IMG/VR virus record: IMGVR_UViG_3300029448_000399
Coordinates: 273-25,267 of that record
DNA from: a virus
Strand: one strand, 5' to 3'
Length of the DNA: 24,995 nt
Shown: positions 4,431 through 23,223 of the stretch, one piece after another
Position numbering within the stretch: the stretch's first letter is position 1
Layout: the number at the start of each line of letters is the position of its first letter
Program-made: the position numbers and the translations under genes
The notes under the pieces: model-generated
What the model was told of the DNA's origin: nothing
Seen by the model: the letters and a program-made list of their open reading frames with translations, nothing else
Database searches by the model: none

Positions 4431-4446
4431 TTATTATATACTTATG
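4431..4446 (+). promoter_or_regulatory. Repeated promoter-like motif, copy B
   Basis: TTATTATATACTTATG ends in the ATG of the protease gene at 4444. An A8 run ending in ACA, which overlaps the tape measure stop codon, lies 9 bp upstream. It differs from copies A and D at one base. The spacer 4414-4443 contains nothing else, so this is the only candidate signal for the head gene block. Confidence 0.6.
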
Positions 4447-5831: not shown

Positions 5832-5847
5832 TTATTATATATGTATG
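5832..5847 (+). promoter_or_regulatory. Repeated promoter-like motif, copy C
   Basis: TTATTATATATGTATG ends in the ATG at 5845 of the scaffold-like gene. The nearest A-tract (AAAAAATA) lies about 8 bp upstream, matching the spacing of the other copies though the CA is replaced by TA; a true AAAAAACA lies farther back at 5793. It is the most divergent copy. Confidence 0.5.
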
Positions 5848-8574: not shown

Positions 8575-8590
8575 TTATTATATATTTATG
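8575..8590 (+). promoter_or_regulatory. Repeated promoter-like motif, copy D
   Basis: TTATTATATATTTATG, identical to copy A, ends in the ATG at 8588. AAAAAACA lies 9 bp upstream. The copy sits directly after a terminator, the clearest argument that it restarts transcription: without it the portal and fibre genes would depend on read-through. Confidence 0.65.
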
Positions 8591-11288: not shown

Positions 11289-11392
11289 TAAAAAGATACA
11301 AGATAAAAGACAAAAATTTAACAAAATTAAAAAAATATATAAATAATAAATTAAAAAAGAATGGCGACATTAACTGGAAACTCAATAAGTAG
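11285..11392 (+). CDS. Possible 35-residue Lys/Asn-rich ORF
   Basis: Its ATG overlaps the connector stop by four bases (ATGA), the kind of junction used for coupled translation elsewhere in this window. The product is 35 residues, mostly Lys, Asn and Ile, and ends 32 bases inside the fibre gene. In so A-rich a stretch the composition is what any open frame would give, so it may simply be leader sequence for the fibre gene. Confidence 0.25.
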   Translation: MIKRYKIKDKNLTKLKKYINNKLKKNGDINWKLNK

Positions 11393-19203: not shown

Positions 19204-19779
19204 ATGAAACTATCACAAAACTTAACATTAGCAGAAGCGTGTAGATCTGAAACTGCAAAGCGTAAAGGAATAGATAATACGCCAAGTGGATCTATATTAG
19301 ACAATTTAAAACTTACAGCAGAAAAATTATTTCAACCTATACGAGATCATTTTAAAAAACCTATATATGTATCAAGTATGTATCGTTGCGAACGATTAAA
19401 CAGTTTAGTAGGTGGAGTATCACACAGTAAACATATAACTGGGCAAGCTATCGATATAGATAATGATACAACAGACGTTTCTAACAAAGACATATTTAAT
19501 TACATAAAAGACAACTTAGATTTTGATGTATTAATATGGGAATTCGGTGATGACAAACCTAATTGGGTGCATTGTACTTATGTAGAAGGTTTAAACAGAA
19601 AACAAGTTTATCGTAATTCTATAGAAGAAGGTATGCAAATGTATACAGAGCCGAAAGTTGCACAACCTAAAAAAGTAAAATATGAGCAAAAACCGAAAAA
19701 AGTTCAAGGAAACAAAACTGGGAAAGTTCCTGCTAGGGAAATCAGGGGTGTTTCAGACATTAGCAGAGACGATTCCTGA
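19204..19779 (+). CDS. Endolysin, M15-type peptidoglycan peptidase
   Basis: A 191-residue protein with the Peptidase_M15_3-type zinc peptidase core over residues 1-130. The zinc ligands are visible: His77 and Asp84 in SHSKHITGQAIDID, and His123 in NWVHC, with a likely catalytic Asp/Glu before it. Such enzymes cut peptide cross-links in peptidoglycan and act as phage endolysins. There is no signal peptide, so it needs a holin to reach the wall; candidates lie on both sides. Residues from about 160 on form a Lys/Arg-rich tail with low complexity that is overlapped in another frame by the holin gene, so that tail may exist only because of the overlap. Confidence 0.8.
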   Translation: MKLSQNLTLAEACRSETAKRKGIDNTPSGSILDNLKLTAEKLFQPIRDHFKKPIYVSSMYRCERLNSLVGGVSHSKHITGQAIDIDNDTTDVSNKDIFNYIKDNLDFDVLIWEFGDDKPNWVHCTYVEGLNRKQVYRNSIEEGMQMYTEPKVAQPKKVKYEQKPKKVQGNKTGKVPAREIRGVSDISRDDS

Positions 19780-20098
19780 CAAAGGGGTTTTAGGCGTTTT
19801 AAAGAACTTAATTATTACGGACGATAGTTTACCTAAAACAGACAAAGAAACTGCTTTAAAGATGTTAGAAATCGAAATAGAGGAACTTGACGCTGTAACT
19901 AGAAGATGGGAAGCAGATTTAATGTCAGATTCTTGGCTTAGTAAAAATGTTAGACCAATATCACTAGTATTTCTAACTTTAGTTTATGCAACAGGTTTTT
20001 TTATGGAATACGATCTAAATATTATAAATCAACTTATGCTTTTAGTTTATGGTGCATACTTTGGAAGTCGTGGGTTGGAAAAGATTCGAAAACTTTAG
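19682..20098 (+). CDS. 3TM-type holin-like protein
   Basis: A 138-residue protein starting 98 bases inside the endolysin gene in another frame. The N-terminal half is charged and helical (KTDKETALKMLEIEIEELDAVTRRWEAD). It is followed by SDSWLSKNVRPISLVFLTLV and NIINQLMLLVYGAYFGSRGLEKI, two hydrophobic helices at about residues 92-132. The motif RWEADLMSDSWLSKNVRP resembles the Holin_3TMs family. Holins form inner-membrane lesions that release the endolysin. It is the last gene before the palindromic spacer, so it closes the late block. Confidence 0.7.
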   Translation: MSKNRKKFKETKLGKFLLGKSGVFQTLAETIPDKGVLGVLKNLIITDDSLPKTDKETALKMLEIEIEELDAVTRRWEADLMSDSWLSKNVRPISLVFLTLVYATGFFMEYDLNIINQLMLLVYGAYFGSRGLEKIRKL

Positions 20099-20104
20099 TA
20101 TTAT

Positions 20105-20157
20105 ATTGTAATTTTATTATATTATAATTATACAATATTGTACAATTACTATATAGT
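20105..20157 (+). promoter_or_regulatory. Cluster of palindromes, operator candidate
   Basis: The 78-bp spacer between holin and NinG holds overlapping perfect palindromes: TACAATATTGTA (20131-20142), ATTGTACAAT (20137-20146) and ACTATATAGT (20148-20157). A further ATTGTA at 20105 forms a wider inverted repeat with TACAAT at 20131. Four half-sites of one sequence in 42 bp suggest binding of a dimeric regulator. There is no GC stem, so it is not a terminator. Confidence 0.5.
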
Positions 20158-20167
20158 ATTATGTTTA
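20138..20167 (+). promoter_or_regulatory. Bacteroidetes-type promoter candidate before NinG
   Basis: TTG at 20138-20140 and TATGTTTA at 20160-20167 are 19 bp apart, close to the Bacteroidetes -33 TTG and -7 TAnnTTTG elements. Transcription would start just before the ATG at 20177. The palindromes overlap it. A weak match in A+T-rich DNA, so tentative. Confidence 0.4.
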
Positions 20168-20176
20168 TAGTGTGTT

Positions 20177-20569
20177 ATGCGTAGAAAACTTATTAAAAAA
20201 ATTGACAGAATATTTAGTAAGTATATCCGACTAAAACACGCTGATCACGCAGGTAATTGCACCTGTATTACTTGTGGTAAAAAAGCTAAATGGGATAGTG
20301 GACAAATACACGCAGGACATTTTGTTAGTAGAAGATATTTAGTTACAAGGTTTGACGAAACTAATGTTTATCCTCAATGTGCGTACTGTAATAATTGGCT
20401 TCAGGGGAATCAGTATACTTTTGGAAAAGCAATTGACAGAATACACGGAGAAGGTACTGCAGATGATTTAATGATACTATCAAAGAAAACAATTAAGATC
20501 GAAAACTACGAATTAGAAGATATTTTTTGCAAAATTAAAGATGGTTTATTAACTTTATCAAATAAATAA
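20177..20569 (+). CDS. ninG: NinG/Rap-like recombination nuclease
   Basis: A 130-residue protein matching the NinG family, known from lambda as Rap, a nuclease acting on branched recombination intermediates. The metal-binding cysteine and histidine pairs are all present: Cys30-x2-Cys33, His45-x2-His48 (HAGHFVSRR) and Cys68-x2-Cys71-Asn72. This is the HNH-like core. The following WLQGNQYTF and the C-terminal DDLMILSKK region also fit. It is the first gene after the palindromic spacer and opens the DNA metabolism block. It may resolve recombination or replication intermediates before packaging. Confidence 0.85.
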   Translation: MRRKLIKKIDRIFSKYIRLKHADHAGNCTCITCGKKAKWDSGQIHAGHFVSRRYLVTRFDETNVYPQCAYCNNWLQGNQYTFGKAIDRIHGEGTADDLMILSKKTIKIENYELEDIFCKIKDGLLTLSNK

Positions 20570-20587
20570 CACAAAAATAATATCATT

Positions 20588-20905
20588 ATGAGTATCGAAA
20601 ACACGATTACAAATACAAAAACAGTCGCTGATAGTTTCGTAAACGACCAACTAATATGGCGCAGAGAACGTATAGAAACATTAACAAGAGAAATAAAAGA
20701 TCTTAAAGAGCAAAACAATCAATTAAGACAATTATTTACAAACGAAGTAGATTTCGTTAAGTTAATGAAAGGTTGCATAGAAGATTTATTACAAATAGAA
20801 GGTGCAAACGAATTAGATTCTGCTAAAAAAGCAATGGAACAAATAGACAGACATATTTATAGTCAGGAACAGTATATAATTCGTAACTTTTTAAACAAAA
20901 AATAA
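20588..20905 (+). CDS. Coiled-coil protein of unknown function
   Basis: A 105-residue, charged, helical protein. Residues 25-50 (WRRERIETLTREIKDLKEQNN and after) show heptad spacing of Leu and Ile and should form a coiled coil. The rest is helical with KLMKGCIEDLLQIEGANELDSAKKAMEQIDRHI. It shares one base with the next gene start (TAATG), so the pair is likely co-translated. No domain is recognised; its place among replication genes suggests a partner or accessory protein. Confidence 0.5.
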   Translation: MSIENTITNTKTVADSFVNDQLIWRRERIETLTREIKDLKEQNNQLRQLFTNEVDFVKLMKGCIEDLLQIEGANELDSAKKAMEQIDRHIYSQEQYIIRNFLNKK

Positions 20906-21450
20906 TGGCACTAGCAATAAACGAAGAAAGAAAAGCTACTATAGATTGGATCGAAGAAGGCAAGATTTGGTCAGGAGCAGACAATACATCTATGAAAGAA
21001 CATAGAGTATCATTTAAAAACGGTGACATAGCAGTATTTAATTATCCTGCAAGTAAAGTTTATCCTTTTCAAAAAGGTGATGTAGTTACATATTTATTAA
21101 ATGAACGAGAAGATAAGTTCACAAAAAAAGTTAAACAAAACGGAAAACAAATGAAAAAAGTAGAAGAACAACCACCTGCACCTACAGCAAGTACACAAAA
21201 TAATGTATCTTTAACACAACAACAAAGTATTGCATTATCTGTTGCTAGTAAATTAGGTTTCGAAACTGTAACATCAACACCTTGGCAAGAAACATTAAAA
21301 ATAAAAGCTAAGAAAGATCAAATACAGAAAGACGAAACACCTGATACAGCGTCAGCTAGATTACAAGCAGAAGCACAACAGAAATTATTAACGTCTATTG
21401 CGCAGATATCGATTGCATACTATAATCTATTAACAACTAAACCACAATAA
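20905..21450 (+). CDS. Unrecognised replication-region protein
   Basis: A 181-residue protein with two parts. Residues 1-80 are beta-rich (WIEEGKIWSGADN, EHRVSFKNGDIAVFNYPA, FQKGDVVTYLLNERED) and could be a small barrel such as an OB-type fold. A Pro/Ala/Thr linker (about 88-100) leads to a helical, Ala/Gln-rich C-terminus (QQQSIALSVASKLG, ARLQAEAQQKLLTSIAQISIAYYN). Starts at a TAATG junction and ends two bases before the SSB-tail gene. The neighbourhood makes nucleic acid binding plausible, but there is no decisive motif. Confidence 0.45.
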   Translation: MALAINEERKATIDWIEEGKIWSGADNTSMKEHRVSFKNGDIAVFNYPASKVYPFQKGDVVTYLLNEREDKFTKKVKQNGKQMKKVEEQPPAPTASTQNNVSLTQQQSIALSVASKLGFETVTSTPWQETLKIKAKKDQIQKDETPDTASARLQAEAQQKLLTSIAQISIAYYNLLTTKPQ

Positions 21451-21451
21451 G

Positions 21452-21745
21452 ATGGCACAGAAAACAGATACAGTATTTATAAACGGTCTTTACACATATC
21501 TAAATGATAAAAGTTTTATAGTCTGCAAAAGCAGTCTAAACGTAGAGAAATTTTTAGAACAATTAAAAGATCCTGATGTACAAAAACACATTAGAGAAAA
21601 CGAAGGTTACTTAAAATTTGTTACAATGCTTGGAAAGTCAGGCAAACCATATAGCAAATTAGAAAACAATAATTACAAAGAAGTAACAAGCAAGGAACAC
21701 AGTCCTGATCGAAATTCTACAGACGATGACGGACTACCGTTCTAA
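21452..21745 (+). CDS. Small protein with SSB-like acidic C-terminal tail
   Basis: A 97-residue protein. The first ~70 residues have short beta and helix segments (VFINGLYTYLND, FIVCKSSLNVEKFLEQL, GYLKFVTMLGKSGKPYSKLEN). Then comes a polar linker and the ending STDDDGLPF. This ending closely matches the acidic tip of bacterial single-stranded DNA-binding proteins (DDDIPF in E. coli), which recruits replication and repair proteins. The body is shorter than a standard OB-fold SSB and I cannot confirm the fold. The last 20 bases also encode the start of the helicase gene, so the two are physically linked. Confidence 0.6.
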   Translation: MAQKTDTVFINGLYTYLNDKSFIVCKSSLNVEKFLEQLKDPDVQKHIRENEGYLKFVTMLGKSGKPYSKLENNNYKEVTSKEHSPDRNSTDDDGLPF

Positions 21746-22646
21746 TACAGTCTCTTTAAAATCTCAAGTTAGTAGACTAAATGATATTCGTAATGGAAAG
21801 ATAAAAGAAGGTTTACGACTTGGGATTGATGAGATAGACGAGTACTGGAGATTTAAATTTAACAGTTTTAATCTAGTACTTGGACACGCTTCAACAGGAA
21901 AAACTACAACACTACTTTATTTATTGCTTTTATATGCACGTAAGTACGGACTTAAATTTTTAATTTATAGTGCAGAAAACGAAGCATCAAGTATTAGTAA
22001 AAAACTTTGTGAGTTTCTTGTTGGATTACCATTTAATAAAATAGAACAAAATGTTTGGAAAGAAAAGATTGAATGGATACACGAACACTTTAGATATATT
22101 GACATAGACGAAACTTTTACATCTAGCGAATTGCTTACAAAAGCAGAAGTAATTAAAAACGAATTCGACTTTCACGGTTTTGTTATAGATCCATATAATT
22201 CATTAGTTAGAGACAGAGAGTTAATGAGATCATACGGATCACACGAGTACGACTATGCAATAATGTCAGATATGCGACTATTTACAAGACGAAATAAATG
22301 TTCGATCTATTTAGTAACACACGCTGTTACAGAAGCACTAAGACATAAACACCCTAACGGACATAAATTTGAAGGATATATACAACCCCCTAGTGCAGGA
22401 TCTGCAGAAGGTGGTGGGAAGTTCTTAAATAAAAGCGACAATTTTATGATTTTGCATAGAATGACAAACCACCCTGAATTATGGACACATACATATATAG
22501 CTATAATTAAGATAAAAGAGATCGATAGCGGTGGCAGACCAACACCATTAGATAATCCCATAGAATTAAAATCACTACCTAACAATGTAGGTTTTAGTTT
22601 AAATAGCAGAAATTTATTACATTTGGTAAAAAAGATTGATTCTTGA
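21726..22646 (+). CDS. DnaB-like replicative helicase / RecA-fold ATPase
   Basis: A 306-residue RecA-fold ATPase. Walker A is GHASTGKT at residues 53-60. The catalytic glutamate is probably Glu84 in SAENE, Walker B ends at Asp155 in HGFVIDPYN, and a sensor-like LVTHAVTEALRH lies near residue 200. The PPSAGSAEGGGKFLNKSDNFMILHR stretch matches the late DnaB motif region. It contains only the C-terminal helicase domain; the N-terminal primase-binding domain of DnaB is missing, as in many phage helicases. No primase gene is seen nearby. It overlaps the SSB-tail gene by 20 bases and the sigma-like gene by 11, so the three are probably translated together. Confidence 0.75.
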   Translation: MTDYRSNTVSLKSQVSRLNDIRNGKIKEGLRLGIDEIDEYWRFKFNSFNLVLGHASTGKTTTLLYLLLLYARKYGLKFLIYSAENEASSISKKLCEFLVGLPFNKIEQNVWKEKIEWIHEHFRYIDIDETFTSSELLTKAEVIKNEFDFHGFVIDPYNSLVRDRELMRSYGSHEYDYAIMSDMRLFTRRNKCSIYLVTHAVTEALRHKHPNGHKFEGYIQPPSAGSAEGGGKFLNKSDNFMILHRMTNHPELWTHTYIAIIKIKEIDSGGRPTPLDNPIELKSLPNNVGFSLNSRNLLHLVKKIDS

Positions 22647-23223
22647 AATAGCATATAAGAAACATAAGGATTGGTTAAGAATATGTAAATCTTTCGACTG
22701 CAGTAATGACGACTGCCAAGATATTGTCAGCGAGATGTATCTTAAAATAGATGACTTAACAAAAAAAGGCAAGGATCTAAGGTACGGTGACAACGACATA
22801 AATTATTGGTATTTATATAAAATGATCTTTCACGCTTGTTTAAGAACAAAACAAATGAACAACAGGCGAAGTGATGTTATATTTTCTGCAAGTTTAAATA
22901 GTCCAAGTAATCACACTAATAATGATATGCAGTCTGATTTAGGTTGTACTGTATCGATTCATAATATAACTGCAAATATTAACGACAACATATTGCAAAA
23001 TAAATTGCAAGATTTTACAGCACATTATGAAAGTAAATTAGTGTGGTATGATATTGCAATATTTGAATTAATTACAGATGGTAAAAAAATATCACAGCTA
23101 AGCAGAGAAACAAACATTAGTTACAAATCATTAAGAAATACATATTTAAAAGTAAAAGAATTTATAAAACAAGAATATGAAAAATACGATTGGATTAGGG
23201 GACATAGTGGAAAAGATAATTAA
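22636..23223 (+). CDS. Putative sigma-70-family-like transcription factor
   Basis: A 195-residue protein starting at TTG: an in-frame stop at 22627 and the lack of an earlier start codon leave TTG (22636) as the first usable start, and the conserved-looking segment begins soon after. Residues 22-50 (SNDDCQDIVSEMYLKIDDL) resemble sigma region 2, where bacterial factors have an acidic D-x2-Q/D-I-V helix. Residues 145-182 (IAIFELITDGKKISQLSRETNISYKSLRNTYLKVKEFIKQ region) read as a helix-turn-helix like sigma region 4. Length fits a small ECF-type factor. It could direct polymerase to the repeated motif before structural genes. Alternatives are another HTH regulator. The match is moderate and by eye. 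Confidence 0.5.
   Translation: MILEIAYKKHKDWLRICKSFDCSNDDCQDIVSEMYLKIDDLTKKGKDLRYGDNDINYWYLYKMIFHACLRTKQMNNRRSDVIFSASLNSPSNHTNNDMQSDLGCTVSIHNITANINDNILQNKLQDFTAHYESKLVWYDIAIFELITDGKKISQLSRETNISYKSLRNTYLKVKEFIKQEYEKYDWIRGHSGKDN

Follow-up and report, generated by a model that had tools for sequence, protein, structure and literature searches.

What does the short AT-rich gap between the lysis genes and the NinG block do, and why is it filled with palindromes? The window analysed here, 24,995 nucleotides long, comprises bases 273-25267 of a 25,267-bp IMG/VR virus record, and a first-pass annotation had described this gap as overlapping palindromes on a host-type promoter where late and early genes meet. 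Our analysis leads us to describe the gap as a conserved array of four probable protein-binding sites heading the NinG block, in a phage group without close isolate in the phage collection searched. The flanking genes are, as had been proposed, a holin and NinG, and the locus is laid out as follows.

19682-20098, plus strand: holin (phrog_3427), upstream neighbour of the array and end of the lysis genes
20099-20176, no strand: intergenic slot with the array, 78 bp, 87% A+T
20099-20110, no strand: unit 1, TATTATATTGTA, 11 of 12 positions as in TACWATATWGTA, directly 3' of the holin stop codon
20115-20126, no strand: unit 2, TATTATATTATA, 10 of 12 positions as in TACWATATWGTA
20131-20142, no strand: unit 3, TACAATATTGTA, 12 of 12 positions as in TACWATATWGTA, a perfect palindrome
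20147-20158, no strand: unit 4, TACTATATAGTA, 12 of 12 positions as in TACWATATWGTA, a perfect palindrome
20138-20167, plus strand: earlier promoter candidate TTG-N19-TATGTTTA, weak (G at -9, no G at -5)
20177-20569, plus strand: NinG/Rap-like endonuclease (phrog_5034), first gene past the array
20588-22646, plus strand: genes 3' of NinG, encoding proteins of 105, 181 and 97 aa and a DnaB-type helicase
22636-23223, plus strand: ECF-sigma-like protein, 195 aa, on weak structural evidence

The array consists of four tandem near-palindromic 12-mers with the consensus TACWATATWGTA, which start at 20099, 20115, 20131 and 20147 with a constant period of 16 bp and fit that consensus at 45 of 48 positions. 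Tandem Repeats Finder likewise detects a 16-bp period, which it places at 20099-20142, and no other part of the window fits the four-unit pattern at more than 31 of 48 positions. All the strings quoted in the first-pass annotation are present (ATTGTA at 20105-20110 and 20137-20142, TACAAT at 20131-20136 and 20141-20146, ACTATATAGT at 20148-20157), and the palindromic repetition it saw is a real array, but its parse into ATTGTA/TACAAT half-sites has to be given up: the repeat is TACWATATWGTA, and what had been taken for half-sites, like ACTATATAGT, derives from units 1, 3 and 4 together with a spacer. Similarly, ATTGTACAAT, the word it had suggested looking for elsewhere in the genome, is the right half of unit 3 plus spacer; in the whole 25,267-bp record it has a single exact occurrence, and with one mismatch allowed the window holds 5 against 3.57 expected, a near-chance frequency that rules it out as the repeat unit.

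Conservation of the array was followed in relatives drawn from IMG/VR by NinG and helicase searches (29 loci, 41 loci, and the best 80 of 197), the gap itself being compared across 34 loci, the window included, that hold 21 distinct gap sequences. Tandem near-palindromic sites in fixed register, four units spaced 14-17 bp apart, are present in 20 of these 21 gaps, and in 20 of 21 unit 1 begins directly at the 3' side of the holin stop codon; the one gap without a significant array is that of L085, where 3 of 300 shuffles did as well. Could such an array arise by chance? The gap is 87% A+T and some half-sites come cheaply in such DNA, but dinucleotide shuffles of the window's gap reach at most 38 of 48 positions, with none of 5000 as good as the real array, and none of 300 shuffles matched the original in each of the 20 other-than-L085 gaps, so that this reading is already refuted and we give it practically no weight. 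The outer units are better conserved than the inner ones, and a number of gaps, L019 and L020 among them, have degenerate inner units. C3 is conserved in 68 of 84 units and G10 in 59 of 84, counts that lean towards the consensus since units were chosen by their fit to it, while A and T are about equally frequent at positions 4 and 9; the retention of C3 and G10 is the pattern expected of symmetric half-sites TAC/GTA.

The exact word is similarly confined to this place. Across the 312,520 bases of 17 records, made up of 16 relatives and the window's own, it occurs 39 times, 38 of them in the array slot as assigned from coordinates and one outside it (G006:5464), and the reversed control word does not occur in the same 17 records. 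Among all viral contigs, two exact words at a 15-bp pitch are found in 10, every one a NinG relative with the array in the slot; the pair at a 16-bp pitch gave no match in IMG/VR, a search in which the window's own record may not be included.

More distant relatives retain an AT-rich, repeat-bearing slot upstream of NinG with different units, which were read by eye in 48 of the best 80 loci, some of them with mis-called starts. The unit is TATTATATAAGTA in G019, TATAACGTA in G025-G027, TTCTTATATATGA in G028 and TACTATAGTA in G023. Throughout G025-G028 and G030, one unit lies between constant TTGTTT and TATATA flanks upstream of NinG; TTGTTTAAGG and TATATA..TAGGC are retained and the distance between flanks differs by a few bases, while the unit itself varies. 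Constant flanks around a changing unit suggest the trace that a co-evolving DNA-binding protein would leave. G030 also has a 49-aa ORF between array and NinG.

At what level does the array act? RNA folding of the 21 gaps is close to that of shuffles (z from -2.1 to +1.4), the window's gap has no terminator-like match, and the window has no Rfam match at gathering score, which together rule out an RNA hairpin or terminator. Given this unremarkable fold, the array is a DNA-level and not an RNA element.

The host-type promoter fares less well. Its letters stand where the first-pass annotation placed them (TTG at 20138-20140, then N19, then TATGTTTA at 20160-20167), and the layout is that of the primary promoter of F. 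johnsoniae, TTTG/TAHHTTTG. In its -7 element, TAHHTTTG, G at -9/-10 is virtually absent and G at -5 is nearly invariant, and leaders exceed 10 nt in 87% of the predicted transcripts that have a probable promoter (PMC6847099). The window differs on each count: with its G at -9 and its A at -5, TATGTTTA breaks two near-invariant positions of this Flavobacterium element, and the leader of a transcript started from it would be about 5 nt long. None of the 21 gaps contains TAHHTTTG itself. TTG-N19-TANNTTT is present in 4 of 21, all from the window's subclade, against a shuffle mean of 0.14 and maximum of 2 for sequences that are related and not independent; for the looser TAHHTTTR the count is 18 of 21, with shuffles averaging 9.7 and reaching at most 17. 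With TATGTTTA off-consensus, TAHHTTTG missing from the gaps and looser forms present, a promoter within the slot is possible but would not be of the consensus type.

Downstream of NinG, the 97-aa protein has an acidic tail and appears SSB-like in our reading of its sequence, and the DnaB-type helicase occupies 21726-22646. The best relative of this helicase in the phage collection searched is 34% identical, and 3.5 kb of the sequence found no DNA match there, hence no close isolate in that collection. Nine of 12 phage records with related helicases infect Flavobacteriaceae (Cellulophaga, Maribacter, Tenacibaculum) and three are cyanobacterial; together with Shine-Dalgarno-like sites at about background level in 7 records, this leads us to infer a Bacteroidota host. 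Among the relatives, the 33,276-bp record G002 (L039/L040) ends in an ORF resembling the C-terminal part of a gene that G011 has in full, and is therefore probably a near-complete circular genome cut within one gene.

Does the array mark a boundary between late and early genes? The gene that follows the large terminase, a 143-aa head-region gene and a 207-aa gene all have a constant element a few bases upstream of their start codons, and in G025-G028 and G030 the small terminase has it as well. It reads CGTTATA in G023, G025-G028, G030 and G032, and YATTATAT in the window's class, G017 and G019, with an A-rich block upstream of either form; before two of these genes it often stands 3' of a hairpin and T run. 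In 7 records, 26 such elements end at an ORF start on the coding strand against none on the opposite strand, and for 11 records the figures are 35 and 0. The control for these counts is biased by nearly all ORFs lying on one strand, and the expressions were set after the elements had been seen; at least two matches look like chance by context (G002:26232, G032:23366). The window has such elements at 4432-4446, 5833-5847 and 8576-8590, and relatives at L041:11167-11181 and G025:15771 and 26564. Upstream of the gene after the terminase, L041:11118-11165 has a terminator-like hairpin (GGGAG..CTCCC and a T run) with TAAATTTG and the start element immediately behind it. Imprecise repeats also occur in a second AT-rich gap, at 11289-11360 of the window, upstream of the large fibre gene; in G011 and G037 this second gap has an 18-base period of the ATATAGTAAAAA.. 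type.

These start elements are likely an ECF-sigma promoter family with very short leaders or none, for which the protein encoded at 22636-23223 is a candidate factor: its model finds a best match at E 0.021, none below 0.001 and with low whole-length TM-scores, in a match list dominated by sigma factors, and the window's copy has no Pfam match up to E = 1. The NinG start is without the element in 17 of 18 records, the exception being G019, where TATTATATAAGTATG, at the start of NinG, is itself the last unit of the array. The presence of the element before structural genes and its absence before NinG make a late/early boundary plausible. The site that the first-pass annotation had singled out at the lysis/NinG junction does carry a conserved array resembling protein sites, and the NinG block looks like a unit of its own, probably an early one.

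Array and start element are related in some of these phages. The array unit TATATAACGTA of G025-G027 is the reverse complement of the structural-gene start element TACGTTATATA, with 0 of 300 shuffles in each reaching this by exact 8-mers, and the array of G030 resembles the start element of the other class. No such link is seen in G028, G017, G023 and G032, and in the window's class it is at about the level of composition; identity of unit and element as a general rule was rejected, being significant in G025-G027 only.

Which protein might bind? The remark in the first-pass annotation that no repressor gene is visible agrees with our scan of 37 proteins (36 ORFs of at least 60 aa from G011 and one from G002), among whose listed families there is no known repressor or integrase and no MarR, Cro/CI or ribbon-helix-helix family; PHROG annotation gives no repressor family among the matches listed (25 of 58 families). 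For one scanned protein there is a match to DtxR at 4.7e-4, which falls in the SH3 portion and outside the DNA-binding one. Past the window's end, L041:8408-8836 encodes a stand-alone 142-aa protein that resembles DnaA domain IV, with a DnaA-signature-like helix and without the AAA+ motor. Its model (pLDDT 61) has DnaA domain IV 1j1v as best structural match at E 0.027, with none below 0.001, and Pfam Bac_DnaA_C at E 0.0026 falls below the family cut-off. The letters of its recognition helix are the same in G002, G017 and G019 and nearly identical in G026 and G028, despite differing units in both sets; in G030, which also has units unlike the others, the protein has diverged to an unusual degree. 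As a specificity factor it was set aside, because these letters do not track unit class.

Co-variation was compared through the identities of six proteins in 14 records and, in G025-G030, through the ORFs with homologues in the other four records. In G025-G030 the helicase and the ECF-sigma-like protein show a mosaic pattern that does not match unit class, which removes both as co-varying binders. The adjacent holin does track unit class there, as expected from linkage, as does a short, rapidly changing ORF (64-74 aa; G028:8076-8300), whose match in G030 spans just 33 residues.

Taken together, we lean, at somewhat short of even confidence, towards a multi-dimer operator array for the early block, and favour this over a lambda-type origin. 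A dimeric DNA-binding protein would occupy the near-palindromic 12-mers side by side, adjacent dimers lying about one and a half helical turns apart, and the bound dimers would switch transcription of the early block on or off from a cis-acting control site at the head of the NinG/replication block. Here we infer protein binding, the dimeric state, the early block and the effect on transcription. Promoter-like flanks surround the unit in G025-G030, but their spacing varies, unlike that of a fixed promoter, and there is no consensus promoter in the window's class nor a consensus host promoter in any of the 21 gaps. Against the operator also stand the lack of a cognate protein among the families listed for the 37 scanned proteins, the significance of array/start-element identity in G025-G027 only, the degenerate inner units of several gaps and the non-significant array of L085. 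A bolder version, which we regard as unlikely, would make the slot the early-to-late switch of a large uncultured phage group: the factor for the structural start element would also bind the arrayed copies, so that its build-up would silence the early genes, and element and array would drift together by lineage, as in G025-G027 and weakly in G019.

The alternative that deserves most attention, and that we consider possible while leaning against it, is a lambda-type origin, in which the units would be iterons for a phage initiator, the AT-rich slot would open and the nearby-encoded helicase would be loaded; transcription from the slot may activate such an origin. Four tandem near-palindromic units and AT-rich DNA beside replication genes recall ori-lambda as described in PMC3349717, and the phages carry a DnaB-type helicase and the small DnaA-IV-like protein, the latter from a low-confidence model. 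The window's least stable 60-bp and 80-bp duplexes lie over the slot 20099-20176, and of the 13 records with T-, D-, E-, F- or H-type units, several of them partial, all but G002 and G011 have their least stable 80 bp at the slot (11 of 13). The lambda-type arrangement of about four iterons beside an easily opened AT-rich segment is thus found here, but its stability part fails in G025-G028 and G030, where the slot is the least stable 80 bp in 0 of 5 and the least stable 60 bp in G030, whose slot is framed slightly off. In 6 of 7 records the 6 kb beyond the slot show a higher third-position A/T skew than the DNA preceding it, a comparison confounded by the mostly fibre genes before the slot; cumulative GC skew makes no turn there, a weak test on a genome coded on one strand. 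The 14-17-bp pitch does not correspond to whole helical turns, and the recognition helix of the DnaA-IV-like protein stays constant across differing units. Words resembling the DnaA box show no enrichment in the gaps, and a search of 18 sequences for TTWTNCACA turned up no cluster of three, which speaks against a DnaA-box origin. Operator array and lambda-type origin are not mutually exclusive, and the evidence on both is computational.

A site for a host regulator or nucleoid protein, copied by the phage, is improbable in our view. It would account for the failure to find a phage binder among the scanned proteins, and the same word and pitch do precede MarR-type genes in Bacillota: the word pair at 15-bp pitch occurs in 13 bacterial genome stretches, 12 from Bacillota and one from Rhodobacteraceae, and the next gene is of the MarR family in all 8 scanned of the 12 Bacillota records. 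None of the 13 is from Bacteroidota, however, the host to which helicase relatives and the background level of Shine-Dalgarno-like sites point. The Rhodobacteraceae contig has the 15-bp unit TACAATATAGTACAA, nearly the phage-array unit, twice upstream of a ParA-like gene (L061:3754-3780). A partition or packaging site, for which this gene speaks, seems very unlikely, as the families listed for the scanned phage proteins include no ParA/ParB and, in G011 and G002, over 6 kb separate the slot from the terminase genes.

In the open library searched, none of the papers listed as containing one of the four 12-mers was relevant by title, no paper joined MarR with the word or a marine flavobacterial phage with NinG and DnaA, and searches for uncultured flavobacterial phages of this kind returned nothing, the phage/Flavobacteri/iteron papers being off-topic by title. 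The array gives a phage group without close isolate in the collection searched a concrete conserved cis-element, and marks the probable beginning of its early block. Combined with the phage-specific start element and the ECF-sigma-like gene it makes a gene-expression programme testable, and should the slot be an origin, such phages would come with a replication handle ready for use.

Among known systems, the array resembles the lambdoid OR/OL operators, where several dimer sites lie at an early promoter and the unit sequence differs between related phages; the phage array differs in its four evenly spaced sites and in having no repressor or integrase family among those listed. The Bacillota MarR genes (L050-L060, L062) share with it the 12-mer TACTATATAGTA and the 15-bp pitch, there at the start of a regulator gene, with two units in place of four and the regulator gene adjacent, whereas no MarR family is listed among the scanned phage proteins. 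Several of these pairs have, in our reading, a TTGACA-like -35 upstream, and their position points to binding by MarR; by analogy, winged-helix dimers can plausibly use this word and pitch, and a pair of them would fit the geometry. The iterons of lambda, like the units here, have internal symmetry. Ori-lambda has four 18-bp iterons inside the initiator gene, followed by a 38-bp AT-rich part, whereas the phage slot has 12-bp units at a 14-17-bp pitch in a gap that is AT-rich throughout, with no known initiator; common to both are four tandem units, AT-rich DNA and adjoining replication genes (PMC3349717).
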